DNA of 64,000 nt from contig NZ_BOOP01000001.1 in the NCBI RefSeq assembly GCF_016863295.1, forward strand, positions 496,001 to 560,000. The letters are read 5' to 3'. Positions within the stretch are counted from its first letter, which is position 1, and each line of letters starts with the position of its first letter. The notes under the pieces were generated by a model. It did not search any database, was not told the DNA's origin, and was given only the letters and a program-made list of their open reading frames with translations. Source of the DNA: Planotetraspora phitsanulokensis (lineage in GTDB: Bacteria; Actinomycetota; Actinomycetes; Streptosporangiales; Streptosporangiaceae). Shown here piece after piece: positions 8,039-23,311 of the stretch. Both the position numbers and the translations under genes were made by a program.

Positions 8039-8071
8039 CGCGCTGGAGCGCGGTCGGCCGGTGAATGAAAG

Positions 8072-8146: not shown

Positions 8147-8153
8147 TTCAATC

Positions 8154-8175: not shown

Positions 8176-8253
8176 AACCCGTCGTCATAGAGCTTAGCGG
8201 AGAGATGATCGGCCGCGTGGCCCCTGGCGTGGTCCTAATGTAGCGGACATCGG

Positions 8254-8259
8254 TAACCT
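8254..8259 (+). promoter_or_regulatory. -10 element, leaderless layout, of the ANTAR regulator gene
   Basis: TAACCT followed by 7 bases and the GTG start at 8267. No ribosome-binding site is present between them. Confidence 0.4.
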
Positions 8260-8266
8260 CTTGTGC

Positions 8267-8863
8267 GTGAGTACGCAGCGGCGAGTGGTGATCGCGGAAG
8301 ACGAGGCACTGATCCGTCTCGACCTCAAGGAGATGCTCGAAGAGGACGGCTACGCCGTCGTCGGAGAGGCGGGCGACGGGGAGAGCGCGGTGAAGCTGGC
8401 CGTCGAGTTGCGGCCCGACCTCGTGATCCTCGACGTGAAGATGCCCGTCCTCGACGGGATCTCGGCCGCCGAGAGGATCGTCTCGGAGCGGATCGCGCCC
8501 TGCCTCATCCTGACCGCGTTCTCGCAGCGTGACCTGGTCGAGCGTGCCCGGGACGCGGGGGCCATGGCCTACCTGGTCAAGCCGTTCACCAAGGGCGACC
8601 TCGTTCCGGCGATCGAGATGGCGGTCAGCCGCCACGAGGAGATCTCGGCGCTGGAGAAGGAGGTCTCCACCCTCTCCGAGCGGCTGGAGACCCGCAAGCT
8701 GGTGGAGCGGGCGAAGGGCCTGCTCATGACCCGGCACGGATGGACCGAGCCGCAGGCGTTCCGATGGATCCAGAAGGCCTCCATGGACCGCCGGCTGAGC
8801 ATGCGCCAGGTGGCCCAGGCGGTGGTCGACGACGGCGCCGGAGAGTCCGATTCGACCGCGTGA
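8267..8863 (+). CDS. pdtaR: ANTAR-domain response regulator, PdtaR-like
   Basis: About 198 residues. The receiver domain carries acidic residues at the start (IAEDEALIRLD), the phospho-acceptor aspartate in DLVILDVKMP, and the conserved lysine in AYLVKPF. The C-terminal ANTAR domain (ERAKGLLMTRHGWTEPQAF and RLSMRQVAQAVV) binds tandem RNA hairpins to prevent transcription termination in this family. GTG at 8267 is preferred over TTG at 8261 because of the -10 spacing. Mycobacterial PdtaR works with the kinase PdtaS, which is not encoded here. The gene is divergent from the tRNA. Confidence 0.9.
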   Translation: MSTQRRVVIAEDEALIRLDLKEMLEEDGYAVVGEAGDGESAVKLAVELRPDLVILDVKMPVLDGISAAERIVSERIAPCLILTAFSQRDLVERARDAGAMAYLVKPFTKGDLVPAIEMAVSRHEEISALEKEVSTLSERLETRKLVERAKGLLMTRHGWTEPQAFRWIQKASMDRRLSMRQVAQAVVDDGAGESDSTA

Positions 8864-9052
8864 CGCCTTTGCCGTGAGTTGATTTCAGAGCTCAATGGGA
8901 TTCGAGTGCCACTTGAGGCGCATGTGACGAAATGCGCGGAGAGAGTGCACACCAGGCTCCTGGTCAGAAAGGTTCCCCTCCAAAGTTGAGGAGTTATTAC
9001 GACTCCGCAACCAAGTGTGGACAGTTCTGACGCATGCCTGGTCGGAGGTCCC

Positions 9053-9081
9053 TTGCGGTATGTACGTTTCCACCATTCGAT
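9053..9081 (+). promoter_or_regulatory. Possible promoter of the second binding-protein gene
   Basis: TTGCGG (9053-9058), 17-base spacer, TTCGAT (9076-9081), leaving a leader of about 47 bases. The preceding 200 bases contain several small inverted repeats (e.g. 6-bp arms GCGCAT/ATGCGC near 8920-8940 and ACCAGG/CCTGGT near 8950-8965) but no gene. Confidence 0.3.
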
Positions 9082-9134
9082 CGGGACCGGTCGGCGTTGC
9101 TGCCGTATCCCGGCCTGGATGAAGGAGATGCTTC

Positions 9135-10424
9135 ATGATCCGCATTGCCCCCCTTGGGCGCGTGCTGGCCGTCGCCGCGGCCGCCAGCCTCGCCCTGACG
9201 GCCTGTGGCGGTGGCGAGGAGACCGCCGCGCCGACGTCTTCGGCGCCCGCCTCCTCGGCGCCTGCTGCTGCCAAGGGAGACGGCGTTCTCACCGTTGGCA
9301 CGCTGCTGCCGCAGACCGGTTCGCTCGCCTTCCTCGGTCCGCCGGAGTTCGCGGGTGTCAAGCTGGCGGTTCAGGAGATCAACGCCGCCGGCGGCGTCCT
9401 CGGCAAGCCGGCCGTCGAGATCGACACCGACTCGGGTGACACTTCGACCAACATCGCCTCTCAGTCGGTTGACAAGCTGCTCCAGCAGAAGGCCGACGTC
9501 GTGGTCGGTGCGGCGTCGTCCTCGGTGTCGCTGTCGGTCATCGACAAGATCACCGGTGCCGGTGTGGTGCAGTTCTCGCCCGCCAACACCTCTGACCAGT
9601 TCACGACGTACAACGACAAGGGTCTGTACTTCCGTACTGCTCCGCCGGACGTGCTCCAGGGCCGCGTGCTCGGCGACCTCATCCTCGCCGACGGCAGCGA
9701 CAGCGTGGGCATCCTCGCCCTCCAGGACGCGTACGGCACCGGCCTCGCGGACAACGTCCAGAAGGCGGTCGAGGGCGGCGGCGGCCAGGTCGTCTCGAAG
9801 GTCATCTACGACCCGAAGGCGGCCGACTACTCCGCGGACGTCGCGAAGATCAAGGAAGCCAACCCCAAGGCCATCGCGCTGATCGGCTTCGACGAGACGA
9901 AGAAGATCGTGCCTGAGCTCGTCAAGCAGGGCCTGACCGCCGACAAGGTGAAGTGGTACTTCGTCGACGGCAACCTGTCGAACTACGGCACCGGCAAGGA
10001 CGGCTTCCCCAAGGGCACGTTGGACGGCGCGAAGGGCACCCAGCCCGGCGCCGAGGTCTCCGACGACTTCAAGGCGAAGCTCATGACGGCCGACCCGAGC
10101 CTGAAGGACTTCAACTACGGTCCCGAGTCCTACGACGCCACGATCCTGACCGCTCTCGCGGCGACCGCGGCCAAGAGCGACGCGGGCGCCGACATCGCGG
10201 CGAAGCTCACCGAGGTCTCCAGCGGCGGCGAGAAGTGCACGGACTTCAAGTCCTGCGCGGACCTGCTCGCGGCCGGCAAGGACATCGACTACGACGGTGT
10301 CTCGGGCCCGATCGAGTTCAACGCCGCGGGTGACCCGGCAGAGGCCACCATCGGCATCTACCAGTACGGCGCGGACAACACCAACAAGAACATCGCCTTC
10401 AACACCGGCAAGATCGACGGCTGA
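9135..10424 (+). CDS. livK: ABC transporter substrate-binding lipoprotein, branched-chain amino acid type (system 2)
   Basis: 429-residue solute-binding protein of the LivK family. Signal peptide with lipobox LTAC (Cys 24), then an Ala/Ser/Thr-rich linker to about residue 48, then the binding fold (LTVGTLLPQTGSLAFLGPPE). ATG at 9135 is preceded by AAGGAG. Codon usage is strongly biased, consistent with high expression. It is transcribed alone and converges with the minus-strand permease/ATPase genes at 11152-15244, which I infer are its partners because they lack a binding protein of their own. A strong hairpin terminator follows. Confidence 0.9.
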   Translation: MIRIAPLGRVLAVAAAASLALTACGGGEETAAPTSSAPASSAPAAAKGDGVLTVGTLLPQTGSLAFLGPPEFAGVKLAVQEINAAGGVLGKPAVEIDTDSGDTSTNIASQSVDKLLQQKADVVVGAASSSVSLSVIDKITGAGVVQFSPANTSDQFTTYNDKGLYFRTAPPDVLQGRVLGDLILADGSDSVGILALQDAYGTGLADNVQKAVEGGGGQVVSKVIYDPKAADYSADVAKIKEANPKAIALIGFDETKKIVPELVKQGLTADKVKWYFVDGNLSNYGTGKDGFPKGTLDGAKGTQPGAEVSDDFKAKLMTADPSLKDFNYGPESYDATILTALAATAAKSDAGADIAAKLTEVSSGGEKCTDFKSCADLLAAGKDIDYDGVSGPIEFNAAGDPAEATIGIYQYGADNTNKNIAFNTGKIDG

Positions 10425-10456
10425 CGCCGCCGACGGCACGGCTGTAGGCCAGCGAG

Positions 10457-10485
10457 GGGCCCGGTCCGCGAGGACCGGGCCCTTT
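10457..10485 (+). terminator. Hairpin terminator after binding protein 2
   Basis: Eleven-bp perfect stem (10457-10467 with 10472-10482), tetraloop GCGA, followed by TTT. It begins 32 bases after the stop codon. Confidence 0.85.
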
Positions 10486-10547
10486 CGCGTGTCACGGCGT
10501 CCCCGCCCGCCTCGGCCCGGCCCTGGCGCCTCGTACGGCAGGCGGGG

Positions 10548-11018
10548 TCAGGGCCTGGGGCAGGTCGAGGTGATGGCGTGGGAGGCCTGGCGATACTCGC
10601 GGAGCAGCGCGGGCCTCTGGGCGGGGTCGGTGGCGGCCGCGGACAGCGGCGTGCCGACCTCCTCGATCGTCGCGGCGGGTCCGGCCAGGGACGCGGGGAG
10701 ATGCGGGCCGTACATCGCGAGCGTGCCGCGCACGTAGCCGAAGCGGCCGCGCACGTCGCCGTCGTAACGCTGGGCGTCCTCCTGACCGGCGGGGAGCAGG
10801 GACAGCTCGAGGTAGCCGATCGCGGAGACCACCCGGGTGCATGCGTCGTCGCCGGGCTTGGCGCCGGTCACGTAGACGGCCTCATCCGTGGAGGTCCCAC
10901 CCGTGCCGGCCGGGGACGCGGACTCCGCCGAACTGTCGTGGGGGGTGCTCTGGCAGGCGGTCAGGGCGATCGTGAGCGCCGTGACGGCCAGCGCCGACCC
11001 CAGAGTGAATCGGGTCAT
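10548..11018 (-). CDS. Small lipoprotein of unknown function
   Basis: About 156 residues. Signal peptide ending in LTAC with the lipobox cysteine at residue 22, followed by a Ser/Gly/Thr-rich linker and a soluble region with two further cysteines (residue about 53 and near the C-terminus) that could form a disulphide. I recognise no family. ATG at 11018 is 7 bases downstream of CACAAT, suggesting its own leaderless transcript; ATG at 11027 is the alternative start. It is separated from the upstream liv operon by a strong terminator, so it is probably not part of it. Confidence 0.7.
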   Translation of the reverse strand: MTRFTLGSALAVTALTIALTACQSTPHDSSAESASPAGTGGTSTDEAVYVTGAKPGDDACTRVVSAIGYLELSLLPAGQEDAQRYDGDVRGRFGYVRGTLAMYGPHLPASLAGPAATIEEVGTPLSAAATDPAQRPALLREYRQASHAITSTCPRP

Positions 11019-11107
11019 GACGCCCATTGTGCTCGCCGCGTTTCACGGTCTCGCGGGCAAAAGGTCACAAGGTGGTAGCCGGCTGGCCGTGCCGTACCCG
11101 GACAACG

Positions 11108-11145
11108 CGAAGGGCCCCGGGCGGCGAACCGCCCGGGGCCCTTCG
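11108..11145 (-). terminator. Terminator of liv operon 2
   Basis: Perfect 17-bp stem (11108-11124 with 11129-11145) and CGAA loop, starting 6 bases after the livF stop on the minus strand. No U-tract. Confidence 0.85.
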
Positions 11146-11151
11146 TGACAC

Positions 11152-12039
11152 CTAGGCGCGCGCCAGCGTGCCGAGGTAGAGCTGGATGACCTTGGGGTCG
11201 TTGATGAGCTCGCGACCGCTGGCCATGTAGGCGTTGCGGCCCTGGTCGAGGACGTAACCCCGGTGGCAGATCTGCAGGCAGCGGCGTGCGTTCTGCTCCA
11301 CCATGATGATCGTCACGCCGGCCTTGTTGATCTGCTGGGCCTGGATGAAGACCAGGTCCTGCAGCTTGGGCGACAGGCCGGCCGACGGCTCGTCGAGCAG
11401 CAGGACCGACGGCTCGGTCATGAGCGCGCGGCCCATGGCGACCATCTGGCGCTCGCCGCCGGACAGTGAGCCGGCCCGCTGCTTGCGCCGCTCCTTGAGC
11501 GCGGGGAAGATCTCGCAGACGAACTCGAAGCGTTCCTTGAACTTGCCGGGCACCTGGAAGGCGCCCATCTCCAGGTTCTCCTCGATGGTGAGGCTGGGGA
11601 ACACGTTGTTGGTCTGCGGGACGTATCCCACGCCCCTGGCGACGAGCGAGTGGGCCTTGAGGTTGGTGATGTCCTCGCCGTTCAGCGTGACCGTGCCCGT
11701 GCGCACGTTCACCAGCCCGAACAGCGACTTGAGCAGCGTCGACTTCCCGGCTCCGTTGGGGCCGATGATGCCGATGAGCTCGCCCTTCTTCACGTACAGG
11801 TCGGCCCCGTTGAGGATGTTCACGCCGGGGATGTAGCCCGCGTACAGCTCGTCGGCGCGCAACACGGCGTCCTCCGCCCCGGCGAGGTGGTCGGAGCGGT
11901 CGGTGACGGCCGAGGAGCCGGCGACCTGCGCGGCGTCCTCGGTCTCCGGGGCGTCCTGCTCCGCGGCCCTCGCGGCCGGTACGGCTACCGCCTCGTCGCC
12001 GGCCTCGGCGCGCTCGGCGTTCGGCTCTGGCTCGGTCAT
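11152..12039 (-). CDS. livF: ABC transporter ATP-binding protein LivF with acidic N-terminal extension (system 2)
   Basis: 295 residues. The ATPase core starts near residue 58 (LRADELYAGYIPGVNIL); Walker A GPNGAGKST, signature LSGGERQ, Walker B VLLLDEPSAGLSP. The first 55 residues are Ala/Glu-rich and look disordered; system 1 LivF lacks them. The start overlaps the livG stop by 4 bases (ATGA), supporting the long form. It is the last gene of the livH-M-G-F operon. Confidence 0.9.
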   Translation of the reverse strand: MTEPEPNAERAEAGDEAVAVPAARAAEQDAPETEDAAQVAGSSAVTDRSDHLAGAEDAVLRADELYAGYIPGVNILNGADLYVKKGELIGIIGPNGAGKSTLLKSLFGLVNVRTGTVTLNGEDITNLKAHSLVARGVGYVPQTNNVFPSLTIEENLEMGAFQVPGKFKERFEFVCEIFPALKERRKQRAGSLSGGERQMVAMGRALMTEPSVLLLDEPSAGLSPKLQDLVFIQAQQINKAGVTIIMVEQNARRCLQICHRGYVLDQGRNAYMASGRELINDPKVIQLYLGTLARA

Positions 12040-12968
12040 GCCTTCTCCTCGATCTCGGCCTCGAGCTCGGCCTCGGCCTCCTGCAGCTGCTCCTCGGCCT
12101 CCTCGGCCGACATCGGCGCGTCGTGGTGGGCGCCGAGGTAGGCGTCGATGACCCGGCTGTCGGACATGATCGTGTCCGGCGGGCCCTCGGCGATGACCGC
12201 GCCCTGTGCCATGACGATGACCCAGTCGCTGATGTCGCGGACCATGTCCATGTCGTGCTCGACGAAGAGCACGGTCATGCCCTCCTCGCGCAGGTCCTTG
12301 ACGTGGCCGAGCAGGGACTGGGTCAGCGCCGGGTTCACGCCGGCCATGGGCTCGTCGAGCATGACGAGCTCGGGGCCGACCATGAGGGCCCGGGCCATCT
12401 CCAGGAGCTTGCGCTGGCCGCCCGACAGGGAGCCGGCGAAGTCGTCCCGCTTGGCCGCGAGCTTGAACCGCTCGAGGAGCTCCTCGGCGCGCTCGGTGAT
12501 CTCGTCTTCCTGGCCCCGCCAGCTGCCGGGGATCAGGGCGCGGAAGAAGTTCTCCCCGCGCTGGTTCTGCGCCCCGAGCCGCATGTTCTCCATGACGGTC
12601 AGCTTGGACAGGGCCTTGGTGAGCTGGAAGGTGCGCACCATGCCGCTGCGGGCCACCCGGTGGGCGGGTACGCCCTTCAGCTGCTTGCCGTTGAAGGACC
12701 AGGAGCCCTCGTCCGCGGTGTCGAACCCGGTGAGCTGGTTGAAGAACGTGGTCTTCCCCGCTCCGTTCGGCCCGATGAGCGCGGTGATCGAGCCACGCTG
12801 GATCTCGACGTGGTCGACGTCCACCGCGGTCAGGCCGCCGAACCTCCGTACGACCTTCTCGACGACGAGGATGGGGTCGGGCTTGGGGACGCCCGGCTCG
12901 GTTTCGATTCCCTCGAAGGCCGCGAGAGCGGCGGCCTTCTTGCTGGTCACGGTGGTGTCAGCGTGCAT
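12036..12968 (-). CDS. livG: ABC transporter ATP-binding protein LivG (system 2)
   Basis: 310 residues with a short N-terminal extension and an acidic, Glu/Ala-rich C-terminal tail (last 30 residues). Walker A GPNGAGKTT, signature LSGGQRK, Walker B LVMLDEPMAGVNP. The start overlaps the livM end by 11 bases. It should couple to LivH/LivM of the same operon. Confidence 0.9.
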   Translation of the reverse strand: MHADTTVTSKKAAALAAFEGIETEPGVPKPDPILVVEKVVRRFGGLTAVDVDHVEIQRGSITALIGPNGAGKTTFFNQLTGFDTADEGSWSFNGKQLKGVPAHRVARSGMVRTFQLTKALSKLTVMENMRLGAQNQRGENFFRALIPGSWRGQEDEITERAEELLERFKLAAKRDDFAGSLSGGQRKLLEMARALMVGPELVMLDEPMAGVNPALTQSLLGHVKDLREEGMTVLFVEHDMDMVRDISDWVIVMAQGAVIAEGPPDTIMSDSRVIDAYLGAHHDAPMSAEEAEEQLQEAEAELEAEIEEKA

Positions 12969-13947
12969 CGAGCGCCATCTCCCTCTTGTCGCCGAAGATG
13001 CCCTGGGGCCGGAAGATGAGCAGGAGCATCAGGCCGAGGCCGACCAGGATGAAGCGCACCGAACCGACCTGGGTGACGGTGACCGCCGTGCCGAAGACTC
13101 CGGCGCCGACGGCCTCGCTCAGCGTGTTGCCGACGAAGACCAGCAGCACCCAGAAGATCGCCGCGCCGACCACGGGGCTGAAGACCCGTGCCGCGCCGCC
13201 GAGGATCACGATCGTGTACGCGTAGAACGTGAACTCGGTGCCGAACAGGTCGGGCTGGATGGACGCCTGACCCAGGCCGAAGATGAAGCCGCCGAGGCAG
13301 CCGATGACGCCGCCGAGGACGAGCGCCTGCATCTTGTAGGAGAAGACGTTCTTGCCGAGGCTGCGCACGGCGTCCTCGTCTTCCCTGATGGCCTTCAGCA
13401 CGCGGCCCCACGGGCTCTTCATCAGCAGGTAGACGAGCGCGCAGGACAGCGCGATCAGGACCCAGCCGACCGTCAGGACCCAGGTGGTCCGCTCGTTGAA
13501 CGAGATCGGGCCGATGCCGTACGTCCCGGGGGCGAAGGGGTTCATGGCGTAGAAGTCGCCGGAGAAGTTCTGCCGCCCGTCGGAGCCGCCGAAGACGTCC
13601 TTGAACGCCACCGACCGGAAGACGAGCCGGACGATCTCCGCCGCCGCGATGGTCACGATGGCGAGGTAGTCGGCCCGCAGCCGGAGGGTGGGGATGCCCA
13701 GGAGGAAGGCGAGGACCACCGTGGCCGCGAGACCAACGGCGATGCCGAGCCAGAACGACAGGCCGAACGTCGAGACGATGACGGCCAGGCCGTACGCGGC
13801 GACGCCGAGGAAGGCCGCCTGGCCGAAGTTGAGCAGTCCGGCGTAGCCGAACTGGATGTTGACGCCGATCGCGGCGAGCGCGTAGACGACGGTCTCCAGG
13901 CCGATCGAGGCCTTGACCGTGGTCACGAAGATGGTGTTCCAGTCCAC
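12958..13947 (-). CDS. livM: Branched-chain amino acid type ABC transporter permease LivM (system 2)
   Basis: 329 residues, about nine to ten hydrophobic segments; the conserved region FGYAGLLNFGQAAFLGVAAYG begins near residue 33. Start GTG at 13947 with GGAG seven bases upstream, 13 bases after the livH stop. The extended extracellular loop around residues 115-150 includes FGGSDGRQNFSGDFYAMNPF, a common actinobacterial feature as far as I recall. Confidence 0.9.
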   Translation of the reverse strand: MDWNTIFVTTVKASIGLETVVYALAAIGVNIQFGYAGLLNFGQAAFLGVAAYGLAVIVSTFGLSFWLGIAVGLAATVVLAFLLGIPTLRLRADYLAIVTIAAAEIVRLVFRSVAFKDVFGGSDGRQNFSGDFYAMNPFAPGTYGIGPISFNERTTWVLTVGWVLIALSCALVYLLMKSPWGRVLKAIREDEDAVRSLGKNVFSYKMQALVLGGVIGCLGGFIFGLGQASIQPDLFGTEFTFYAYTIVILGGAARVFSPVVGAAIFWVLLVFVGNTLSEAVGAGVFGTAVTVTQVGSVRFILVGLGLMLLLIFRPQGIFGDKREMALDAR

Positions 13948-13960
13948 GTGTGGTCTCCGA

Positions 13961-15244
13961 TCAGCCGATGCGCTCGCGGCGGCCGAGGATGCCCTGCGGC
14001 CTGAAGAGCATGACGAGGATGAGCACCAGCAGCGCGCCGACGGTCTTCAGCTCCGTCGGCACCACGAGGGTGGACAGCTGGATGAACAGGCCGACGACGA
14101 GCGAGCCGACGAGTGCGCCGAACGCGGTGCCGAGGCCGCCGAGGGTGACGCCCGCGAAGACGAGCAGCAGGATCTGGAAGCCCATCTGGAAGTTGATGTT
14201 CTGGGCGAGGCCCAGCATGACGCCCGCGAGTGCGGCGACGGCGCCGCCGACGGTCCAGATGATCCGGATGACGCGCTCGACGTTGATGCCGGAGGACGCG
14301 GCGAGCGCGGGGTTGTCGGCGACCGCGCGGGCCGCCTTGCCGGTGCGGGTCTTGAGCAGGGCCAGGCCGACGATCACCAGGACGGCGAGCTCGATGGCCA
14401 TCGCGATGAAGTTCTTGGGCGCAGCCGAGATCGGTCCGACCTGGACGCCCGGCTGGGCGTTGTAGTCGGCGAAGGGCCTGCTCTCCCCGCCGAAGAAGAA
14501 CAGGAAGACGTAGCGCAGGAACAGGGCGAGGCCGATCGAGATGATCATCATCGCGACGAGGCTGCTGCCGCGTTTGCGCAGCTGTCCCCAGAAGAAGCGA
14601 TCCTGCAGATAGCCGAGGCCGCCGCCGATCGCGACCGCGATCACCGCGGCCAGGATGAGCGGGACGCCGAGGGTGGCGTTGAACAGGTAGGCCGCCATGG
14701 CGCCCAGGGTGAGCAACTCACCGTGCGCGAAGTTCGTCAGGCCGGTGGTGCCGAAGACGAGGGACAGGCCCATCGCCGCGAGCGCGATGATGAGGCCGAG
14801 GTTGAAGCCCTCGAAGGTCAGCTGGGCGACACGGTCCCAGAACGAGGAGGACGTTTCGCCAGAGGTGTTCCCGCTGCCCTGCTGTCCGGCGGGTGCGAGG
14901 GCGAACAGCACGTTGCGCTGGTTCCCCTCGTACACCTGGACGTCGAGCGTGCCCTTGTCCTTGAACTTGAGCGCGACCCCCGAGGGAAGCGTCGTCTGGT
15001 CGAGGGTGACCTTGAACTTACCGGCCTTCGGGACGGGGACCTCCCACGTGCCGTCGGCCCCTGTGGTGACCGCGGCGACAGGGCTGCCGTCCTCGGCCAC
15101 CACGCTGATCTTGACGCCGTTCACCGGCTGGCCTTGGTTTTGGAGTGTGCCCTTCAGCGCCTCCCCTTCCGCCCATGCGGGGGAGGCGAGGAGAAGAACG
15201 AGTCCGCCCAGGAAGGCCGTGAACGCGATCACGGCTCTGCGCAA
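13961..15244 (-). CDS. livH: LivH permease with secreted N-terminal Ig-like/carboxypeptidase-regulatory-like domain (system 2)
   Basis: About 427 residues. A signal-like hydrophobic segment (RRAVIAFTAFLGGLVLLLASPAWA) precedes a domain of about 95 residues resembling a carboxypeptidase-regulatory or Ig-like beta-sandwich (GQPVNGVKISVVAEDGSPV, TGADGTWEVPVPKAG). The standard LivH membrane core follows from about residue 145 (FWDRVAQLTFEGFNLGLIIALAAMG). TTG at 15244 is preferred because GAGGGAG lies five bases upstream; an in-frame ATG at 15268 lacks a clear site. The extra domain should face outward, where it could dock the binding protein (inference). Confidence 0.88.
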   Translation of the reverse strand: MRRAVIAFTAFLGGLVLLLASPAWAEGEALKGTLQNQGQPVNGVKISVVAEDGSPVAAVTTGADGTWEVPVPKAGKFKVTLDQTTLPSGVALKFKDKGTLDVQVYEGNQRNVLFALAPAGQQGSGNTSGETSSSFWDRVAQLTFEGFNLGLIIALAAMGLSLVFGTTGLTNFAHGELLTLGAMAAYLFNATLGVPLILAAVIAVAIGGGLGYLQDRFFWGQLRKRGSSLVAMMIISIGLALFLRYVFLFFFGGESRPFADYNAQPGVQVGPISAAPKNFIAMAIELAVLVIVGLALLKTRTGKAARAVADNPALAASSGINVERVIRIIWTVGGAVAALAGVMLGLAQNINFQMGFQILLLVFAGVTLGGLGTAFGALVGSLVVGLFIQLSTLVVPTELKTVGALLVLILVMLFRPQGILGRRERIG

Positions 15245-15465
15245 TGGTGCTCCCTCTATTTGGGTCATGGCGGGGGGGTCGCCCCTCCATTCCGAACACG
15301 CAACAATCGCCTCGGGTCGACGACGTTGTGGCGGAGCATAAGCCCGAGTCGCCCGGTTCGGGGTTGTTCGTCACCAATCGGTGACCATGGTGTGTCACTC
15401 GCGTGAGAATGGCTTCCCAGGTCAGAACCGATTTGCCAGAGAGATCCTCTATTGAACGGCTGCGG

Positions 15466-15556
15466 AAAAAACAGTGAGCCCGTGGCTGACCTTTGGGACC
15501 GTGCAGAGCTTCCCCGGCTCTGCACGTTGTCTACTCGGTCTTCCACGGGCTCAGGG
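15466..15556 (-). ncRNA. Candidate structured small RNA with intrinsic terminator
   Basis: On the minus strand a three-tier hairpin: 11-bp outer helix (15543-15553 with 15475-15485), 2x2 internal loop, 4-bp helix GACC/GGTC (15537-15540 with 15488-15491), asymmetric internal loop, 10-bp inner helix (15517-15526 with 15500-15509), 7-base loop CGGGGAA. Three bases after the outer helix there is a run of six T (15466-15471), which is rare in this GC-rich window. Upstream are TTGCAC and TACCGT spaced by 18 bases, predicting a start at about 15556, just before the outer helix. The parts together look like a self-contained sRNA gene of about 90 nt. The alternative is a terminator for the thioesterase transcript or an attenuator for livH. 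Confidence 0.55.
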
Positions 15557-15562
15557 GCCACA

Positions 15563-15592
15563 ACGGTAGCGACCGGAGAGGGCCGCGTGCAA
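15563..15592 (-). promoter_or_regulatory. Promoter of the candidate sRNA
   Basis: Minus strand: TTGCAC (15592-15587), 18-base spacer, TACCGT (15568-15563). The predicted transcript start falls 2-3 bases before the outer helix of the hairpin. Confidence 0.45.
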
Positions 15593-15666
15593 AGAGAGTC
15601 GTAAGCTCATCCGTTTTGCGGCGATATGTCAGTGTGCCGTCGGCGTGTCGCCGACCCGTGCGGATT

Positions 15667-16083
15667 TCAGGCGTCGCGAAGCATGCAGGTGAGGCGCGAG
15701 GTGCAGATCCGCCGGCCCTGCTCGTCGGTGATCTCGATCTCGTACGTCGCGAGGGTGCGCCCGCCGTGCGTCCGGGTGGCGACCCCGGTCACGTGCCCGG
15801 AGGTGGCCGAGCGGTGATGCGTGGCGTTGATCTCGATGCCCACCGCGATCCTGCCCTCGCCGGCGTGCAGGGCGGCTCCCGTGGACCCCAGCGTCTCGGC
15901 GAGCACGACCGAGGCGCCGCCGTGCAGCAGGCCGTACGGCTGGGTGTTGCCCGCGACGGGCATGCGGCCGACGACCCGCTCCGGGCTCGCCTCGAGGATC
16001 TCGATGCCCATGCGCGCCGGCAGGTGGCTTTTGCCGGCCTCGTTCACGGCTGCGAGGAACTCGTCGGGGTTGGTCAAGGTCAA
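15667..16083 (-). CDS. Hotdog-fold acyl-CoA thioesterase (PaaI / DHNA-CoA type)
   Basis: 138 residues, the usual length for a single hotdog domain. The motif QPYGLLHGGASVVLAETLGS carries the HGG turn and the downstream catalytic acid/helix of PaaI-type thioesterases. Start TTG at 16083 with AGGAGGG six bases upstream. It hydrolyses acyl- or aryl-CoA thioesters in the cytoplasm; the substrate cannot be told from sequence. Divergent from polA with 62 bases between. Confidence 0.85.
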   Translation of the reverse strand: MTLTNPDEFLAAVNEAGKSHLPARMGIEILEASPERVVGRMPVAGNTQPYGLLHGGASVVLAETLGSTGAALHAGEGRIAVGIEINATHHRSATSGHVTGVATRTHGGRTLATYEIEITDEQGRRICTSRLTCMLRDA

Positions 16084-16133
16084 AGGGATCCCTCCTGTGG
16101 GAAGAGCCCGGGATTCATGTCGTAGACGGAGAC

Positions 16134-16139
16134 TAGGCT
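16134..16139 (+). promoter_or_regulatory. -10 element, leaderless layout, of polA
   Basis: TAGGCT, then 6 bases, then GTG at 16146. No Shine-Dalgarno sequence is present. Confidence 0.5.
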
Positions 16140-16145
16140 GCGGTT

Positions 16146-18827
16146 GTGCCGAAGAGTGAAGCGACCCCCAGCCGTCCCCGCCTGCTGCTGCTGGACGGCC
16201 ATTCTCTTGCCTACCGTGCGTTCTACGCCCTCAAGGACGCCAATCTCATGACGACCGACGGGCAGCACACGGAGGCGGTCTACGGCTTCACCTCGATGCT
16301 GGCCAACATTCTCCGCGACGAGCAGCCGAGTCACATCGTCGTCTGTTTCGACCGCAGTGAGCCCACCTTCCGGCACGAGGCGTTCGAGGGCTACAAGGCG
16401 AACAGGAGCGAGACCCCGGAGGACTTCCGCGGGCAGGTCCAGCTGATCTTCGAGCTGCTCGACACGCTGCGGATCCCACGGCTGTGGCAGGCCGGTTTCG
16501 AGGCCGACGACCTGATCGCCACCCTCGCCACCCAGGCGGCCGGCCAGGGGATGGACGTCCTGATCGTCACCGGCGACCGCGACGCGCTCCAGCTCGTCAG
16601 CGACGACGTCACAGTGCTGATGACGCGCCGCGGCATCAGCGACATGACCCGGTTCACCCCGGCCGCCGTCATCGAGAAGTACGGCCTCACGCCGGCGCAG
16701 TATCCCGACTTCGCCGCGCTGCGCGGCGACCCGAGCGACAACCTGCCGAGCATCCCCAGCGTTGGCGAGAAGACCGCCACCAAGTGGATCTCGGAGTACG
16801 GCTCGCTGGACGAGCTGGTCAGGCGGGCCGACGAGGTCAAGGGCAAGGTCGGCGACAAGCTGCGTGAGCACCTCGGCCAGGTCATCCACAACCGGATGCT
16901 GACCGAGCTGAGGCGCGACGTGGAGATCGGCGTCGAGGCGGGCGACCTCCAGATGGGCCAGTGGGACCGCGAGGAGATCAACAAGCTGCTCGACTCGCTG
17001 CAGATTCGCGGGGAGCTGCGTGAGCGGCTCTTCAAGACCCTCGGCACGTCCGAGCCCGAGGTGGAGGAGGGCTTCGAGCTCGAGGTCACCGTGCTCGAGC
17101 CCGGCCAGGTCGCCGGATGGCTCGGCGCGCTCGCCGAGGGCAGGGCCGGCCTCGCCTTCGAAGGCGCGTACGGCAGCGGCACCGGGCGGCTGGAGGGCAT
17201 CGCCATCGCCGCCGAGTCGGGCGCGGCCTACGTCGACCCCACGAGGCTGACCCCGGAGGACGAGGCGGCGCTCGGCGCCTGGCTGGCCGACGAGTCGAAG
17301 CCCAAGGCCGTGCACGACGCGAAGGGGCCGCTGCTGGCCCTGTGGGAGCTCGGGTTCGACCTGCGGGGGCTCACGTGCGACACCGCCCTCGCCGCCTACC
17401 TCGCGATGCCGGGGCAGCGCTCGTTCCCGCTCGACGACCTCGTCCTGCGCTACCTGCACAGGGAGCTGCGGGCCGAGTCCGCGCCCAACGGCCAGGGCTC
17501 CCTGTTCGAGGACGCCGACGCCGGCGCGGCCAAGGACCTGGCGCTGCGGGCCCAGGGCGTCCGCGACCTGGCCGAGTCGCTGGAGGACCACCTGTCCAAG
17601 CGCGGCGGCACGCGCCTGGTCACCGAGGTCGAGCTGCCGCTCGTCCGCGTCCTCGCCGAGGTGGAGCGGGCCGGCATCGCGGCCGACCGGCAGTACTTCG
17701 CCGCGCTGGAGGCCGAGTTCGGCGCCGCGGTGAAGCAGGCCGTCGAGGCGGCCCACGACGCGGTGGGGGAGCAGTTCAACCTCGGCTCGCCCAAGCAGCT
17801 CCAGGAGATCCTGTTCGTACGGCTCGGCCTGCCCAAGACCAAGCGGATCAAGACCGGTTACACGACCGACGCCGACGCGCTGGCCTGGCTCGCCGGGCAG
17901 ACCGAGCACGAGCTGCCGACGATCCTGCTGAGGCACCGCGACCAGACCAAGCTGCGGACCACGGTCGAGGGCCTGATCAAGGAGATCGCCGACGACGGGC
18001 GGATCCACACCACGTTCAACCAGATCGTCGCCGCGACGGGGCGCCTGTCCAGCGAGAAGCCCAACCTGCAGAACATCCCCATCCGCACCGCCGAGGGCCG
18101 GCGCATCCGCAAGGGCTTCGTCGTGGGGGAGGGGTACGAGACGCTGCTGACGGCCGACTACAGCCAGATCGAGCTGCGGATCATGGCTCACCTGTCGGAG
18201 GACGCGTCGCTGATCGCCGCGTTCGAGTCGGGCCACGACTTCCACCAGGCGACCGCCGCCCGGGTCTTCGACATCCCGCCGGAGCAGGTGGACGGCGAGC
18301 TGCGGGCGCGGATCAAGGCGATGAACTACGGCCTGGCGTACGGCCTGTCCGACTTCGGGTTGTCGGGGCAGCTCAACATCCCCGTCGCCGAGGCGAGGGC
18401 GCTCAAGGACGAGTACTTCGAGGAGTTCGGCGGCGTCCGCGACTACCTCGAGGCGATCGTCGCCCAGGCGCGCACGGACGGCTACACCGAGACGATCCTC
18501 GGCCGCCGCCGCTACCTGCCCGACCTGACCAGCGACAACAGGCAGCGCAGGGAGATGGCCGAGCGGATGGCGCTCAACGCCCCCATCCAGGGCTCGGCCG
18601 CCGACATCATCAAGGTCGCGATGCTCAACGTGCAGCGGGCGATCGAGGGCATGCGTTCGCGGATGCTCCTGCAGGTCCACGACGAGCTGGTGTTCGAGGT
18701 GGCCCCGGGAGAGCTCGACGAGCTCACCGCGATGGTGCGGGAGCAGATGAGCGCCGCCTACTCCCTGCGGGTGCCGCTCAGCGTCTCCGTCGGCGTCGGC
18801 TCGACCTGGGAGGACGCCGGTCACTGA
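16146..18827 (+). CDS. polA: DNA polymerase I
   Basis: 893 residues, the normal length. Residues 1-300 form the 5'-3' exonuclease with its acidic cluster (LLLLDGHSLAYRAFYA, FEADDLIATLA, VTGDRDALQL). Residues 310-490 correspond to the 3'-5' exonuclease fold, but the catalytic DxE is replaced (LAFEGAYG) and the later aspartates are not recognisable, so proofreading is probably absent. The polymerase domain follows with motif A (ADYSQIELRIMAHLSED), motif B (RIKAMNYGLAYG) and motif C (LLQVHDELVFE). It fills gaps in repair and removes Okazaki primers. The stop overlaps the end of the opposing DUF2127 gene by 7 bases. Confidence 0.97.
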   Translation: MPKSEATPSRPRLLLLDGHSLAYRAFYALKDANLMTTDGQHTEAVYGFTSMLANILRDEQPSHIVVCFDRSEPTFRHEAFEGYKANRSETPEDFRGQVQLIFELLDTLRIPRLWQAGFEADDLIATLATQAAGQGMDVLIVTGDRDALQLVSDDVTVLMTRRGISDMTRFTPAAVIEKYGLTPAQYPDFAALRGDPSDNLPSIPSVGEKTATKWISEYGSLDELVRRADEVKGKVGDKLREHLGQVIHNRMLTELRRDVEIGVEAGDLQMGQWDREEINKLLDSLQIRGELRERLFKTLGTSEPEVEEGFELEVTVLEPGQVAGWLGALAEGRAGLAFEGAYGSGTGRLEGIAIAAESGAAYVDPTRLTPEDEAALGAWLADESKPKAVHDAKGPLLALWELGFDLRGLTCDTALAAYLAMPGQRSFPLDDLVLRYLHRELRAESAPNGQGSLFEDADAGAAKDLALRAQGVRDLAESLEDHLSKRGGTRLVTEVELPLVRVLAEVERAGIAADRQYFAALEAEFGAAVKQAVEAAHDAVGEQFNLGSPKQLQEILFVRLGLPKTKRIKTGYTTDADALAWLAGQTEHELPTILLRHRDQTKLRTTVEGLIKEIADDGRIHTTFNQIVAATGRLSSEKPNLQNIPIRTAEGRRIRKGFVVGEGYETLLTADYSQIELRIMAHLSEDASLIAAFESGHDFHQATAARVFDIPPEQVDGELRARIKAMNYGLAYGLSDFGLSGQLNIPVAEARALKDEYFEEFGGVRDYLEAIVAQARTDGYTETILGRRRYLPDLTSDNRQRREMAERMALNAPIQGSAADIIKVAMLNVQRAIEGMRSRMLLQVHDELVFEVAPGELDELTAMVREQMSAAYSLRVPLSVSVGVGSTWEDAGH

Positions 18828-19822
18828 GGGAGCCCGCGCCGTCTCCCGCCGAGGGGGCCGGACGGCTCGTCCCCGGCATTCGGGGGTTGTCCACGCGGCG
18901 TGCCCGGCGGTTGCCGGGAGGGTGAGGGTTGCCCGGGTGGTGTGCCCGGTGCCTGCCCGGGCGTGGCCGGTGGCTGTCCGGCGGGCGAGGGCGACGTCCC
19001 GGCACGCCCGTAGGCGCCGGGTGGGCCCGCGGTTCTCCCGTCCCCATCCGACGCTCCACCGGCGGCCGTCCGGCGCACGGCCGCCGCCTCGACCTCGAGG
19101 ATGCTCGCCTCACGCCGCTCCTCCTCGTGCGCGGCCCGACCGCCTCGCAGTCCGAACAATCGCTTGCTCAACGCGATGTAGAGGACGACCGCGATGTTGA
19201 TCAACAGGATGATCAGGCGTGTCGGAGTGACCTTCCCCACCAGCTCGTGGACCTCCACGGGGATGAACGACGAGGTCGCGATCACGGAGAAGTACTCGCC
19301 CCAGCGCTTCAGCAGCCACAGGCCGAGGCCCTCGATCATCCACAACGTGCCCAGGGCGATCAGGGCGAGCATGATCCAGGTCAGCGTCGTCGTCGTTGCC
19401 GCCAGGACGGTCCTGACCGTGTGGACCACGCCGGACTGGTCGAGGTTCCAGCCCAGCCGGTCGGCCAGCGGCTGGAGCAGCGGCAGGCTCTCCTTGAAGG
19501 CCCGGTTGACGGCGTCGTGGTCGGCCCGGAACCGCCACACCCCGTACGCCGCGCCGAGGACGAGCACGCCTTTCACCCACCGGAACATGGCGATCAGCCG
19601 GAGTATCGTGGCGTCACGCAGAGCCCTGCCGCGCAGTACGATCGGCGCGGCTCCGGCAGGCCCGGAGCCGTGGACCTCGCCGACGACGAAGTCGCCGCAT
19701 CGGAGGCACCGCCAGGCCTCGCCCATGGCGGTGTCCGCGCGGAGACGGCCGCACAGCGCCGGGTCATCGGGCGCGTACGTGACGTGACCGTGCCGGCCGC
19801 ACGCTCGCAGGCTCCAATCCAC
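18821..19822 (-). CDS. DUF2127 membrane protein with N-terminal zinc ribbon and Pro-rich tail
   Basis: About 333 residues. The N-terminus has Cys/His pairs (ACGRHGH, WRCLRCGDF) suggesting a small zinc ribbon. Residues 75-230 contain about four membrane segments and match the DUF2127 pattern (MFRWVKGVLVLGAAYGVWRF; LIALGTLWMIEGLGLWLLKRWGEYFSVIAT). The last 80 residues are Pro/Gly/Gln-rich repeats (PGQPP, PPGTP), probably disordered. The start GTG at 19822 has no ribosome-binding site and is tentative; an internal ATG at about 19726 is the alternative. Function unknown. Confidence 0.75.
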   Translation of the reverse strand: MDWSLRACGRHGHVTYAPDDPALCGRLRADTAMGEAWRCLRCGDFVVGEVHGSGPAGAAPIVLRGRALRDATILRLIAMFRWVKGVLVLGAAYGVWRFRADHDAVNRAFKESLPLLQPLADRLGWNLDQSGVVHTVRTVLAATTTTLTWIMLALIALGTLWMIEGLGLWLLKRWGEYFSVIATSSFIPVEVHELVGKVTPTRLIILLINIAVVLYIALSKRLFGLRGGRAAHEEERREASILEVEAAAVRRTAAGGASDGDGRTAGPPGAYGRAGTSPSPAGQPPATPGQAPGTPPGQPSPSRQPPGTPRGQPPNAGDEPSGPLGGRRRGLPQ

Positions 19823-19873
19823 ACAAAAATTGCAACACAGGCCATCTCGGGCGGAGGGCGGCACTAAGGTCAA

Positions 19874-20950
19874 ATGACTGTGCGGAGTGTTGCCCGAGCC
19901 GGTGTTCTCGCCAACGTGGCCGTGGTCGCCGTCGGCCTGGTCGTCGTGGCGCTCCTGCCCTCGTCCGACCACGGCGCGGCGCCGGAGGGCAGAACCCGGA
20001 TCACCCCCGCCCCGTCGCCGTCCGCGAGCCGTCAGGCCGCCCAGCCGGCGGCCGCCGAGTCCGCACGGAAGGTGAAGGCCAACGAGGCGGGCATGATCCC
20101 GGTGATCATGTACCACCGGCTGATGGCCAAGCGGCGGGCGTCCATCGACCGGACCCCCAAGCAACTGCGGGCCGAGCTGGAGCGGCTGGTCCGGGAGAAG
20201 TACATGCCGATCACGGCCGCGGAGCTCGTGTCGGGCAAGTTCAACGTCCCGGCCGGGATGCACCCCGTCGTGCTCACGTTCGACGACGGGAGCCCCAGCC
20301 ACTTCGCCCTCGACGCCCATGGGAACCCCAAGAAGAACACGGCGGTCGAGATCATCTACGAGGTCGCCAAGAAGCATCCGGGCTTCCGCCCCGTCGCCAC
20401 CTTCTGGGTCAACCGGAACCCGTTCGGGATCAAGGACAGGGCCCAGGAGAAGCGGGCGGTCGCATGGCTCGTCGGGCACGGGTTCGAGGTCGCCAATCAC
20501 ACCTACACCCACCCCGACCTGCACCGGCTGAAGGCCAAGAAGGTGTCGGAGCAGATCGTCAAGCAGGAGCGGCTGCTCAAGGAGATCGGCGTTCCGTCGT
20601 CCTCCACGTTCGCCCTGCCGTACGGCTCGGCTCCGAAGAAGCGGGGCGTGGCCCGCGAAGGGGCTTGGGACGGAACGAAGTACCATTTTGACGGAGTTTT
20701 TCTGGCGTCTGCCCGGCCGACCGTTTCGCCCTACGCGAAAGGGTTCGATCGCAACGCGATCCCGCGGGTGCAGTCGAACGAGAAGAAGACGGGATGCCCC
20801 GTCTACTGCACGCAGTACTGGCTCGATTGGCTGGACAAGAGGCCGGGGGAGCGGTACACGTCGGACGGCGATCCCGCCCACATCGCGGTCCCGAAGAAAC
20901 TCAGGGGTAAAATCACTCCAAGCAGGGCCAAAAACGTCATCGCGTACTAG
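19874..20950 (+). CDS. Secreted polysaccharide deacetylase (carbohydrate esterase 4, NodB-like)
   Basis: 358 residues. An N-terminal hydrophobic segment (residues 8-30) is a signal anchor or signal peptide, followed by a Pro/Ala/Ser linker. The NodB fold begins near residue 72 (MIPVIMYHRLM). The catalytic motif TFDDG has the metal-binding aspartate, and HTYTHPD provides the HxxxH metal ligands. Family members remove N- or O-acetyl groups from peptidoglycan, chitin or other glycans at the cell surface. The C-terminal third contains two cysteines close together (GCPVYCTQYW). Confidence 0.85.
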   Translation: MTVRSVARAGVLANVAVVAVGLVVVALLPSSDHGAAPEGRTRITPAPSPSASRQAAQPAAAESARKVKANEAGMIPVIMYHRLMAKRRASIDRTPKQLRAELERLVREKYMPITAAELVSGKFNVPAGMHPVVLTFDDGSPSHFALDAHGNPKKNTAVEIIYEVAKKHPGFRPVATFWVNRNPFGIKDRAQEKRAVAWLVGHGFEVANHTYTHPDLHRLKAKKVSEQIVKQERLLKEIGVPSSSTFALPYGSAPKKRGVAREGAWDGTKYHFDGVFLASARPTVSPYAKGFDRNAIPRVQSNEKKTGCPVYCTQYWLDWLDKRPGERYTSDGDPAHIAVPKKLRGKITPSRAKNVIAY

Positions 20951-20971
20951 CGTGTTCAGGCTTGTATCGGA

Positions 20972-21000
20972 TTGACCCAGCACGCCACGTCTCATATGCT
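20972..21000 (+). promoter_or_regulatory. Strong housekeeping promoter of rpsA
   Basis: TTGACC (20972-20977), 17-base spacer, TATGCT (20995-21000). It gives a leader of about 143 bases before rpsA, long enough for autoregulation by S1 as known in other bacteria (inference). Confidence 0.75.
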
Positions 21001-21149
21001 GATCGCTGCGTTGTGGGCTCGCGCGCGTCTCGTACGGAGCGGCTCGCGCTCGATCATCCGATGCTTCGCCAGGTGCCTCCGATGACCGAAAACAGGCCCG
21101 CCGCGCTTCCGTCACAACGACATCTGTCCGGTTCGGAGCAACTCCACAC

Positions 21150-22619
21150 ATGACGAGCAGCACTGAGGCCACCTCGAACACCCCGCAGGTAGCGGTCAAC
21201 GACATCGGTTCCGAGGAGGCCTTCCTCGCCGCGATCGACGAGACCATCAAGTACTTCAACGACGGAGACATCGTTGAAGGCACCGTCGTCAAGGTCGATC
21301 GAGACGAGGTCTTGCTCGACATCGGCTACAAGACCGAGGGTGTCATCCCCTCGCGTGAACTCTCCATCAAGCACGACGTCGACCCCGCTGAGGTCGTCGC
21401 GGTCGGGGAGCACGTCGAGGCCCTGGTTCTCCAGAAGGAGGACAAGGAAGGCCGTCTGATCCTGTCCAAGAAGCGCGCTCAGTACGAGCGGGCCTGGGGC
21501 ACGATCGAGAAGATCAAGGACGAGGACGGCATCGTCACCGGCACGGTCATCGAGGTCGTCAAGGGTGGTCTCATCCTCGACATCGGCCTCCGCGGCTTCC
21601 TGCCGGCCTCCCTGGTCGAGATGCGCCGCGTCCGCGACCTGCAGCCGTACGTCGGCCGCGAGCTCGAGGCGAAGATCATCGAGCTGGACAAGAACCGCAA
21701 CAACGTGGTCCTGTCCCGCCGCGCCTGGCTCGAGCAGACCCAGTCCGAGGTGCGTCAGACGTTCCTCAACACCCTGCAGAAGGGTCAGGTCCGCAAGGGC
21801 GTCGTCTCCTCGATCGTCAACTTCGGCGCCTTCGTGGACCTCGGCGGAGTCGACGGTCTGGTCCACGTCTCCGAGCTGTCCTGGAAGCACATCGACCACC
21901 CCTCCGAGGTCGTCGAGGTCGGCCAGGAGGTCACGGTCGAGGTCCTCGACGTCGACATGGAGCGCGAGCGGGTCTCGCTGTCGCTCAAGGCGACGCAGGA
22001 GGACCCCTGGCAGCAGTTCGCCCGCACCCACCAGATCGGCCAGGTCGTTCCAGGCCGGGTCACCAAGCTGGTGCCGTTCGGCGCGTTCGTCCGGGTCGAG
22101 GAGGGCATCGAGGGCCTGGTCCACATCTCCGAGCTGGCCGAGCGTCACGTGGAGATCCCGGAGCAGGTCGTGCAGGTCGGCGACGAGATCTTCGTCAAGA
22201 TCATCGACATCGACCTGGACCGTCGTCGCATCTCCCTGTCGCTGAAGCAGGCGAACGAGGGCGCGATCGGCGCCGACGTCGAGTTCGACCCCACGCTGTA
22301 CGGCATGGCGGCGACCTACGACGACCAGGGCAACTACATCTACCCCGAGGGCTTCGACGCCGAGACCGGCGAGTGGCTCGAGGGCTTCGACAAGCAGCGT
22401 GAGGAGTGGGAGCGGCAGTACGCCGAGGCTCAGGCCCGCTTCGAGGCGCACAAGACGCAGGTCGAGAAGGCTCGCGCCGAGGAGGCGGAGGCCAGCGAGG
22501 CCGCGCCGTCCTCCTACAGCGGCGAGACCGCCAGCCAGGCTCCGGCGACCGGTGGCGCGCTGGCGTCCGACGAGGCGCTCGCCGCCCTTCGCGAGAAGCT
22601 GGCCGGCGGCCAGAGCTGA
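21150..22619 (+). CDS. rpsA: 30S ribosomal protein S1
   Basis: 489 residues with four S1 RNA-binding domains (about residues 33-105, 120-188, 205-275, 290-362), starting at GDIVEGTVVKVDRDEVLLDIGYKTEG, with each domain repeating a GxVxG...GAFV/DLG pattern. The C-terminal 125 residues are acidic and Ala-rich. The four-domain form is normal for actinobacteria. Codon usage is highly biased, as expected for a ribosomal gene. Own promoter upstream and hairpin terminator downstream make it a single-gene unit. Confidence 0.97.
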   Translation: MTSSTEATSNTPQVAVNDIGSEEAFLAAIDETIKYFNDGDIVEGTVVKVDRDEVLLDIGYKTEGVIPSRELSIKHDVDPAEVVAVGEHVEALVLQKEDKEGRLILSKKRAQYERAWGTIEKIKDEDGIVTGTVIEVVKGGLILDIGLRGFLPASLVEMRRVRDLQPYVGRELEAKIIELDKNRNNVVLSRRAWLEQTQSEVRQTFLNTLQKGQVRKGVVSSIVNFGAFVDLGGVDGLVHVSELSWKHIDHPSEVVEVGQEVTVEVLDVDMERERVSLSLKATQEDPWQQFARTHQIGQVVPGRVTKLVPFGAFVRVEEGIEGLVHISELAERHVEIPEQVVQVGDEIFVKIIDIDLDRRRISLSLKQANEGAIGADVEFDPTLYGMAATYDDQGNYIYPEGFDAETGEWLEGFDKQREEWERQYAEAQARFEAHKTQVEKARAEEAEASEAAPSSYSGETASQAPATGGALASDEALAALREKLAGGQS

Positions 22620-22642
22620 CCGCACCTGAAGTGAACGCAGGC

Positions 22643-22666
22643 AAGGCCCCGCTTCGGCGGGGCCTT
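22643..22666 (+). terminator. Terminator of rpsA
   Basis: Ten-bp perfect stem (AAGGCCCCGC with its complement) and TTCG tetraloop, 23 bases after the stop codon. Confidence 0.85.
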
Positions 22667-22757
22667 CCTCATGTCCGGGCCTCATGTCCGGGCCTCATGT
22701 CCGGGCCTCATGTCCGGGCCTCATGTCCGGGCCTCGTGTCCCGCCCTCGTGTCCTGA
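22667..22757. repeat. 13-bp tandem repeat array (7 copies)
   Basis: Five perfect copies of CCTCATGTCCGGG (22667-22731) and two degenerate copies (22732-22757), starting immediately after the rpsA terminator. It is a minisatellite-like array likely to vary in copy number between strains. Confidence 0.9.
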
Positions 22758-22818
22758 GCCGTCCGGGCGGCCTGGCCCCGGAGCGGACGACGGCGCGGCC
22801 GGGACTCCGGACCGCCGA

Positions 22819-22824
22819 TAGGGT
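22819..22824 (+). promoter_or_regulatory. -10 element, leaderless layout, of the GNAT gene
   Basis: TAGGGT, then 7 bases, then GTG at 22832. Confidence 0.45.
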
Positions 22825-22831
22825 GTGCGGC

Positions 22832-23287
22832 GTGGTGGACATCACGCGCGCCCTCCCCGACGACGCGGGGGAGATCCTCACCGTCCAGCGGGCCGCCTAC
22901 GTGACCGAGGCCCAGTTGTACGGAGACCCGTTCATCGGGCCTCTGGTCGAGACCGCCGAGCAGGTCCGTGAGTTCATCGGGACCGGGGTCGTGCTGAAGG
23001 CGACGGCGGGCGGGCGGATCGTCGGGTCGGTCCGGGGCAGGCTCAACGGCGCCACCTGTCTCGTGGGCCGCCTCGTCGTCGTCCCAGACCGCCAGGGCGA
23101 GGGGATCGGGGGCGGCCTGCTGTCCGCGCTCCACGACGCCGTGCCGGACGCCACCGCCTTCGACCTGTTCACCGGCCACCTGTCCGGCGGGAACACGCGG
23201 CTGTATCGCCGTCTCGGCTACCGCGAGACGCACAGGGAGCGCGTCCAGGACCACCTGACCCTGGTGCACCTCCGGCGCGACGTCTGA
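22832..23287 (+). CDS. GNAT-family N-acetyltransferase
   Basis: About 151 residues, one GNAT domain. The acetyl-CoA-binding loop is visible as VVVPDRQGEGIGGGLLSAL (the R/Q-x-x-G-x-G/A signature) with the preceding beta strand (CLVGRLVV), and the C-terminal strand has LYRRLGYRET. Start GTG at 22832 (or GTG 22835) follows a TAGGGT hexamer by 7 bases. Upstream in-frame extensions read through the repeat array and are not credible. Substrate unknown. Confidence 0.85.
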   Translation: MVDITRALPDDAGEILTVQRAAYVTEAQLYGDPFIGPLVETAEQVREFIGTGVVLKATAGGRIVGSVRGRLNGATCLVGRLVVVPDRQGEGIGGGLLSALHDAVPDATAFDLFTGHLSGGNTRLYRRLGYRETHRERVQDHLTLVHLRRDV

Positions 23288-23299
23288 GGCCCCTGTCGG

Positions 23300-23305: not shown

Positions 23306-23311
23306 TCGGGC

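Follow-up and report, generated by a model that had tools for sequence, protein, structure and literature searches.

A conserved structured RNA beside polA in Planotetraspora phitsanulokensis, a candidate member of a small RNA family of Actinomycetota

The 64,000-nt stretch of Planotetraspora phitsanulokensis DNA analysed here (hereafter, the window) has on its minus strand a hairpin of ~85–90 nt whose pairing is conserved, together with its own sigma-70-type promoter motif at the foot, a near-invariant internal loop and flanks that change among relatives, as judged from comparisons of homologous sequences. It is almost certainly a conserved structured RNA, its expression being predicted. We give an even chance to a more specific reading, in which the window's RNA is the polA-linked type of a so far undescribed actinobacterial family of small RNAs, bound by a partner and with an internal loop that would serve as a platform, likely for a protein. 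The initial annotation had proposed a new, independent structured sRNA of ~90 nt, and this proposal is supported by covariation, by the conserved place of the promoter, by the conserved loop and by the lack of a match in Rfam.

The predicted RNA occupies positions 15466–15556 of the window (minus strand, as are all parts given below; ~85–91 nt), as delimited by its fold, by covariation and by a match of 81.3 bits to our model R2. All parts of the three-tier hairpin first described, with perfect helices of 11, 4 and 10 bp, an apical loop and six T, were found in place. Sequence, fold and covariation define the 11-bp lower helix P1 (TGAGCCCGTGG/CCACGGGCTCA; 5′ strand 15543–15553, 3′ strand 15475–15485), its 4-bp inner part, in which GACC (15537–15540) pairs with GGTC (15488–15491), and the 10-bp upper helix P3 (CGTGCAGAGC/GCTCTGCACG; 5′ strand 15517–15526, 3′ strand 15500–15509). 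Between the inner part and P3 lies an internal loop with 5′ strand GAGUAGACAA (15527–15536) and 3′ strand GUCCCAAA (15492–15499), delimited by alignment and loop covariation. P3 is capped by the apical loop CGGGGAA (15510–15516), and the six-T tract (15466–15471) is likely a local terminator tail. The minimum free energy of the hairpin is −51.8 kcal/mol, as compared with −30.6 (sd 3.6) for dinucleotide shuffles (z −5.88), none of 200 shuffles being as low. A reading as a small ORF was dropped, because P3 varies by single bases among members.

A plain DNA search of 60 related genomes gave matches in 25 of them, and AGTAGANAACG was present in 25 of the 26 loci obtained, a count free of pattern bias; these 25 loci made up alignment A1. 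Locus L026 (loci carry L numbers throughout), a DNA-search match without the AGTAGA loop and apparently inside a coding region, was placed in no alignment. Model R1 matched 36 of the 60 relatives, with a single match in each. Under strict filters it reached only 46 of 246 genomes of the class, 45 of which gave a single match and four of which were recovered by weak matches of <31 bits, a modest reach that counts against the preferred reading. Pattern scanning of named genomes yielded at least 117 loci, and those listed come from Planotetraspora, including P. thailandica (L150) and P. mira (L197), Nonomuraea, Microbispora, Streptosporangium, Actinomadura, Frankia and many metagenome bins. Two loci matched by R1 but not by the regular expression (L201, L202) are absent from alignment A2, and two weak R2 matches without AGTAGA (L261, L268) were excluded from A4. 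Across the phylum Actinomycetota, which the model searches covered, R2 matched 70 of 396 genomes, and in one small other class it matched 26 of 27, with two matches in 17. The limited range of the early proposal is not borne out: Streptosporangiaceae, Actinomadura and Frankia all have homologues whose helices show compensatory changes, and so do other classes of the phylum. AGTAGA was kept in 18 of the 20 weaker model matches fetched, again free of pattern bias. A polA-type RNA with the GUAUGGGGAAGG loop was also found at 9229–9274 of a contig filed as viral (L269; IMG/VR contig IMGVR_UViG_3300044808_000042), which could be host DNA or a virus-borne copy.

The initial annotation had named compensating changes in homologues as its test, and the result was positive. 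In A1, 10 of the 16 predicted pairs had changed on both sides. A2 comprised 73 diverse members, left from 208 pattern-matched items after thinning at 80% identity; 84.2% of its helix cells were paired, as compared with 63.6% in shuffled alignments, 327 cells were changed on both sides against 120, and the covariation score was 0.561 against 0.218, with none of 500 shuffles as high for any of these values and with slid structures scoring at most 0.152, although the member sequences are related and not independent. Another of the five measures, which counts pairs with changes on both sides, gave 20 as compared with 18.1, a value attained by 32 of 500 shuffles. Helices that covary across species, one mark of a standalone sRNA, were found both in the polA-linked type and in a second type described below. 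G-U cells outnumbered A-C cells in the helices (113 vs 71), as expected if the minus strand is the RNA strand. This excess, together with the promoter motif at the foot, speaks against an element acting at the DNA level, for instance a hairpin site bound as a single strand, which the long inverted repeat and the single match per genome in 36/36 positive relatives would suit and which we consider the least probable of the readings weighed here.

Upstream of the hairpin, a −35 element TTGCAC (15587–15592) and a −10 element TACCGT (15563–15568), separated by an 18-nt spacer, predict an RNA start at ~15556. Taken by itself, the site matches the E. coli consensus at 6 of 12 positions and was not listed by a short consensus scan of 6000–25000; the promoter call rests on comparison among species and not on the single site. 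Relatives carry, at a fixed place and with the same spacing to the RNA, TTGCNN hexamers in Streptosporangiaceae and Actinomadura and TTGAC-type hexamers in Frankia and Frankiales. After thinning the upstream regions at 75% identity, 130 items were left, in which the best sigma-70-type site had a mean score of 7.11, as compared with 5.87 in shuffles. The best −10 ended 19–32 nt 5′ of AGUAGA, a single 14-nt place, in 116 of these 130 non-redundant members, whereas 30 shuffled sets averaged 19.6 such members and never exceeded 27, although these statistics are no formal probability because related sequences are not independent. This distance puts the predicted RNA start at the foot of the hairpin. 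The conserved place of the promoter agrees with the start first suggested, and the family carries a second mark of a standalone sRNA, a promoter motif at the foot of the RNA.

The most conserved part of the RNA is the internal loop, of 10/8 nt and with consensus GAGUAGAnAA / GnnCCAAA. Its invariance in A2 is partly built in, because the search pattern and the regular expression fixed AGTAGA and parts of AAC, GGGAA and CCA. The helix columns, except the C-G pair closing P3 towards the internal loop, and loop columns 20, 27, 59 and 64 were left free. Among these, loop positions 20 and 64 covary (G.A in 61 members, C.A in 2 and C/U/A.C in 10; mutual information 0.51, permuted maximum 0.11), as do positions 27 and 59 (0.50, permuted maximum 0.24). 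The exchanges are not of Watson-Crick type, which suggests a folded loop with non-canonical pairs. We count this conservation as support for the early proposal that the internal loops could be the functional surface.

The apical GGGGAAG loop marks the polA-linked type, in another class too, and is missing from a short type, of which seven loci were found, that keeps the internal loop. Five loci without GGGGAAG (L248, L251, L265–L267) have a long lower helix and lie near dapA, and the match in L260 has a G+C content of only 43% with the loop still kept. Conservation of GGGGAAG across classes, while the adjoining stem changes, would be expected of a regulatory sRNA that pairs through this loop, and perhaps through the strands of the internal loop, with mRNAs carrying CUUCCCC near their start. 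However, the short type lacks GGGGAAG, and the internal loop is more conserved than a seed requires and covaries in a non-canonical way; we hold such base pairing to be unlikely, if the strongest of the alternatives. The preferred reading has its own difficulty here, as a pure internal-loop model does not explain why GGGGAAG is kept over classes in the polA-linked type.

In the window, the RNA is preceded on the same strand by a thioesterase gene of the 4HBT (PaaI-like) type (15667–16083) and, divergently, by polA (16146–18827, plus strand), and is followed by a livH-like permease gene (13961–15268, minus strand) that starts ~198 bases 3′ of the T-tract. polA is the most constant neighbour: of the 117 named loci listed, 97 have it upstream in divergent orientation and one (L147) has it on the other side, which makes 98, and the 19 loci in which it was not found all hold <1.25 kb upstream. 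The thioesterase gene was found in 88 of the 117 listed loci. The downstream gene is inconstant, the nearest one in the 117 listed loci being liv-like and convergent in 54, liv-like and co-directional in 27 and pdtaR and convergent in 26, with none found in 10; some of the liv-like matches are ABC ATPases only 28–33% identical. Since the downstream gene varies and is mostly convergent, the polA-linked RNA does not appear to be a liv leader, and the link to livH drawn in the initial annotation is not sustained. Distant members have as neighbours thyX (L249, L260, L263, from other lineages and with the RNA downstream of thyX), dapA (L248, L251, L265–L267), DUF4193 (L244, L260) or lnt (L244, L257). 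The livH-like permease of the window has an N-terminal extension (approximately residues 33–123) that looks unusual for LivH and that weakly resembles carboxypeptidase-regulatory, DUF4198 or SdrD-B-like domains, all under the Pfam cut-off.

Two known RNAs are brought to mind by this neighbourhood. The Spot 42 gene (spf) of E. coli is a small RNA gene next to polA; it belongs to another phylum, the shared adjacency is probably a coincidence, and we claim no relation in sequence or structure. Beside the liv operon, on the other strand, 6791–10424 presumably encodes a PucR-type regulator, the ANTAR regulator PdtaR (8261–8863) and LivK, and the gene that reads like pdtaR gives the region a likeness, as we take it, to ANTAR-target loci. 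Target RNAs of ANTAR proteins have two successive hairpins with A1/G4 hexaloops; this shape was not found in the RNA, which is one hairpin with a GGGGAA loop, and the candidate was rejected.

Lying often between a co-directional and a convergent gene and having, in the window, a GC-rich stem followed by six T, the element could be read as no more than a terminator, intrinsic or bidirectional, that ends the thioesterase transcript. However, the T-tract is no feature of the family, contrary to what had been assumed: a rough script based on folds, which gives approximate counts and missed the window's own tract, found at least four consecutive T just 3′ of the stem in 4 of 128 non-redundant members. 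The supposed near absence of U-tracts elsewhere in the window is no strong evidence either, because a consensus scan of 6000–25000 listed 11 terminator-like sites, as compared with 5.9 expected. Further, the internal loop is conserved over classes, a promoter motif stands at the foot, the thioesterase gene was not found by tblastn in loci L103–L105 and L127, and in one genome (L199) the RNA lies 3′ of polA, on the same strand and with the promoter motif between them. We regard a mere terminator as very improbable, although the RNA may terminate transcription as a side function. A reading as the 3′ UTR of the thioesterase gene was rejected or lowered on the grounds given for the rival explanations and for membership in known classes.

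No family of Rfam 15, the comparison originally recommended, matched the RNA, whether in the window or in those relatives that were compared. Over the whole window only a tRNA at 8072–8146 was matched; 15400–15650 gave two weak matches at E ≤10, both outside the hairpin; 14 loci of relatives gave one tRNA only at E ≤1; and 15 loci of a second search gave, at E ≤0.5, one weak miRNA match on both strands, outside the RNA. The bacterial small SRP RNA (RF00169) is likewise a hairpin of ~90–100 nt, but the only match to it in this genome at E ≤0.001 lies on another contig (C22:176431-176526, 72.4 bits), and this candidate was discarded. A search of literature listings and accessible text found no description of the RNA. 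The accessible text of three surveys of new bacterial RNAs (PMC6429828, PMC8632094, PMC11109978) yielded no relevant passage on polA or Frankia, and that of a Streptomyces RNA study (PMC3765725) and of an RNA polymerase (RNAP) RIP-seq study (PMC11077062) no description of the RNA.

The shape, one rod interrupted by an internal bubble, and the RNA's own promoter motif would also fit an RNAP-binding RNA, a short functional analogue of 6S RNA or Ms1. In the accessible text of PMC11077062, 6S RNA is said not to be known from actinobacteria bar one candidate, and an RNAP-bound RNA of ~85 nt, scr0792, is reported in S. coelicolor, to which ours is likened by description. The polA-linked RNA shares with 6S RNA (RF00013) the rod with an internal bubble; nevertheless, RF00013 gave no match, and at ~85–90 nt the RNA falls short of the ~160 nt or more needed, one of the shortest 6S RNAs cited (~160 nt, accessible text of PMC11077062) being about twice as long, so 6S RNA itself was rejected. 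Ms1 (MTS2823, scr3559), which binds the RNAP core, is similarly a standalone, intergenic structured RNA widespread in actinobacteria, according to the available parts of PMC9130861. The same parts require >150 nt and synteny with a HAD hydrolase gene, and give ~230 nt for S. coelicolor, whereas the polA-linked RNA has a different core, ~85–90 nt and polA and the thioesterase gene beside it; Ms1 was thus rejected as well. Ms1 was not found in Frankiales, which would leave room for an analogue there, but it is listed for Planotetraspora, so that there is no vacancy for one in that genus (both from the available parts of PMC9130861). Being also shorter than 6S RNA or Ms1 and in other synteny, the RNA appears improbable as their analogue, and clearly more so than as a base-pairing sRNA.

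A second type of the RNA was revealed by a broader model, R3, applied to 40 genomes of which 38 had given no match before. The model matched at E ≤0.05 in 26 genomes and gave no match at this value in 14; the threshold applies per genome and single weak matches mean little, although they gain support because the loop letters and the neighbouring gene are shared. A diverged form, CAGUAGACAACG / CGGUCCGAAGG or nearly so, with an AGUA/CGAA core, was present in 17 of the 20 R3 loci fetched (not in L270, L271 and L274), and a homologous ORF follows 3′ of the RNA, on the same strand, in 19 of the 20. Pfam comparison of five of these ORFs identified lnt domains in four and nothing for L275. The twentieth locus, L289, has a glycosyl transferase family 2 gene and fxsA after an amidohydrolase gene, an order that, we presume, resembles the surroundings of ppm1 in Streptomyces. 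Alignment A5 held 20 of the 25 lnt-type sequences, and covariation in this type was 0.429, as compared with 0.222 in shuffled alignments (20 sequences; 0/500 as high). An element CCAGRYNC, which may be part of a larger RNA or a control site, occurs 74–84 nt upstream of AGUAGA, at near-constant distance, in 21 of the 25 second-type sequences (among L272–L309).

The genome of P. phitsanulokensis itself gave two R3 matches up to E = 1. One is the polA-linked RNA (E 1.0e-18); the other, with E 0.136, lies upstream of lnt and is weak by E alone yet at the expected place. This second match corresponds to a diverged copy of the RNA core (L303, L316; G000:C55:31002-31099, minus strand). Among polA-type genomes with the lnt locus fetched, six of nine have the second type upstream of lnt. 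Of 23 lnt loci, 15 showed no AGTAGA pattern ahead of lnt (L308 starts almost at the contig end), nor was one seen in the three f6 and the two f20 genomes among them. The polA- and lnt-linked types share the 5′ loop strand, have similar 3′ strands and are linked by intermediate forms, from which we infer that they are paralogues.

The position of the lnt-linked type, upstream of lnt and on the same strand in most loci fetched, is like that of a cis leader and counts against the preferred reading. A leader or attenuator of the downstream gene, liv in the window and lnt for the second type, would likewise suit the same-strand ORF in 19/20 R3 loci and the livH gene beyond the T-tract. Conversely, of the 107 listed polA-type loci in which a liv-like or pdtaR gene was found downstream, 80 have the nearest one in convergent orientation, and the downstream gene differs by lineage. 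We consider a cis leader rather improbable, somewhat below an RNAP-binding RNA although above a simple terminator.

Under the explanation that we prefer, a partner-bound small RNA, the predicted transcript would be free, starting at the foot of the lower helix, and would act in trans. Displayed by the two helices, the internal loop would form a rigid platform of non-canonical pairs, probably bulged-G- or S-turn-like, in which AGUA faces CAAA in the window type and CGAA in the lnt-linked type. In its letters, AGUA opposite GAA, the latter would fit the bulged-G module (loop E, sarcin-ricin, S-turn). Bulged-G modules of the loop E and sarcin-ricin kind are common protein-binding motifs. The window type, with AGUA opposite CAAA, shares this likeness in letters; a difference from the sarcin-ricin module is that the motif would lie inside a small RNA and have further invariant bases. 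A conserved partner, most likely a protein, would bind the platform, and the GGGGAAG apical loop of the polA-linked type may be a second contact, with that partner or, through base pairing, with a further RNA. The lnt-linked type, as a presumed paralogue, would share this platform.

To our knowledge, conservation across the classes of a phylum is rare among RNAs that do not belong to the translation and processing machinery. The RNA described here is notable for its near-unchanging loop, its own promoter motif, its steady place beside polA, a relative beside lnt and the lack of a match in Rfam 15. Culturable hosts such as Actinomadura, Nonomuraea or Frankia offer a direct way to look for its partner, and its function is therefore testable, while a covariance model would permit its annotation in many actinobacterial genomes. 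Tentatively, and with somewhat less than an even chance, the two paralogues with their one loop platform may represent an ancient class of actinobacterial RNA, a so far unseen ribonucleoprotein or ligand-binding RNA, kept near-universally in some classes of the phylum and lost or strongly diverged in others.
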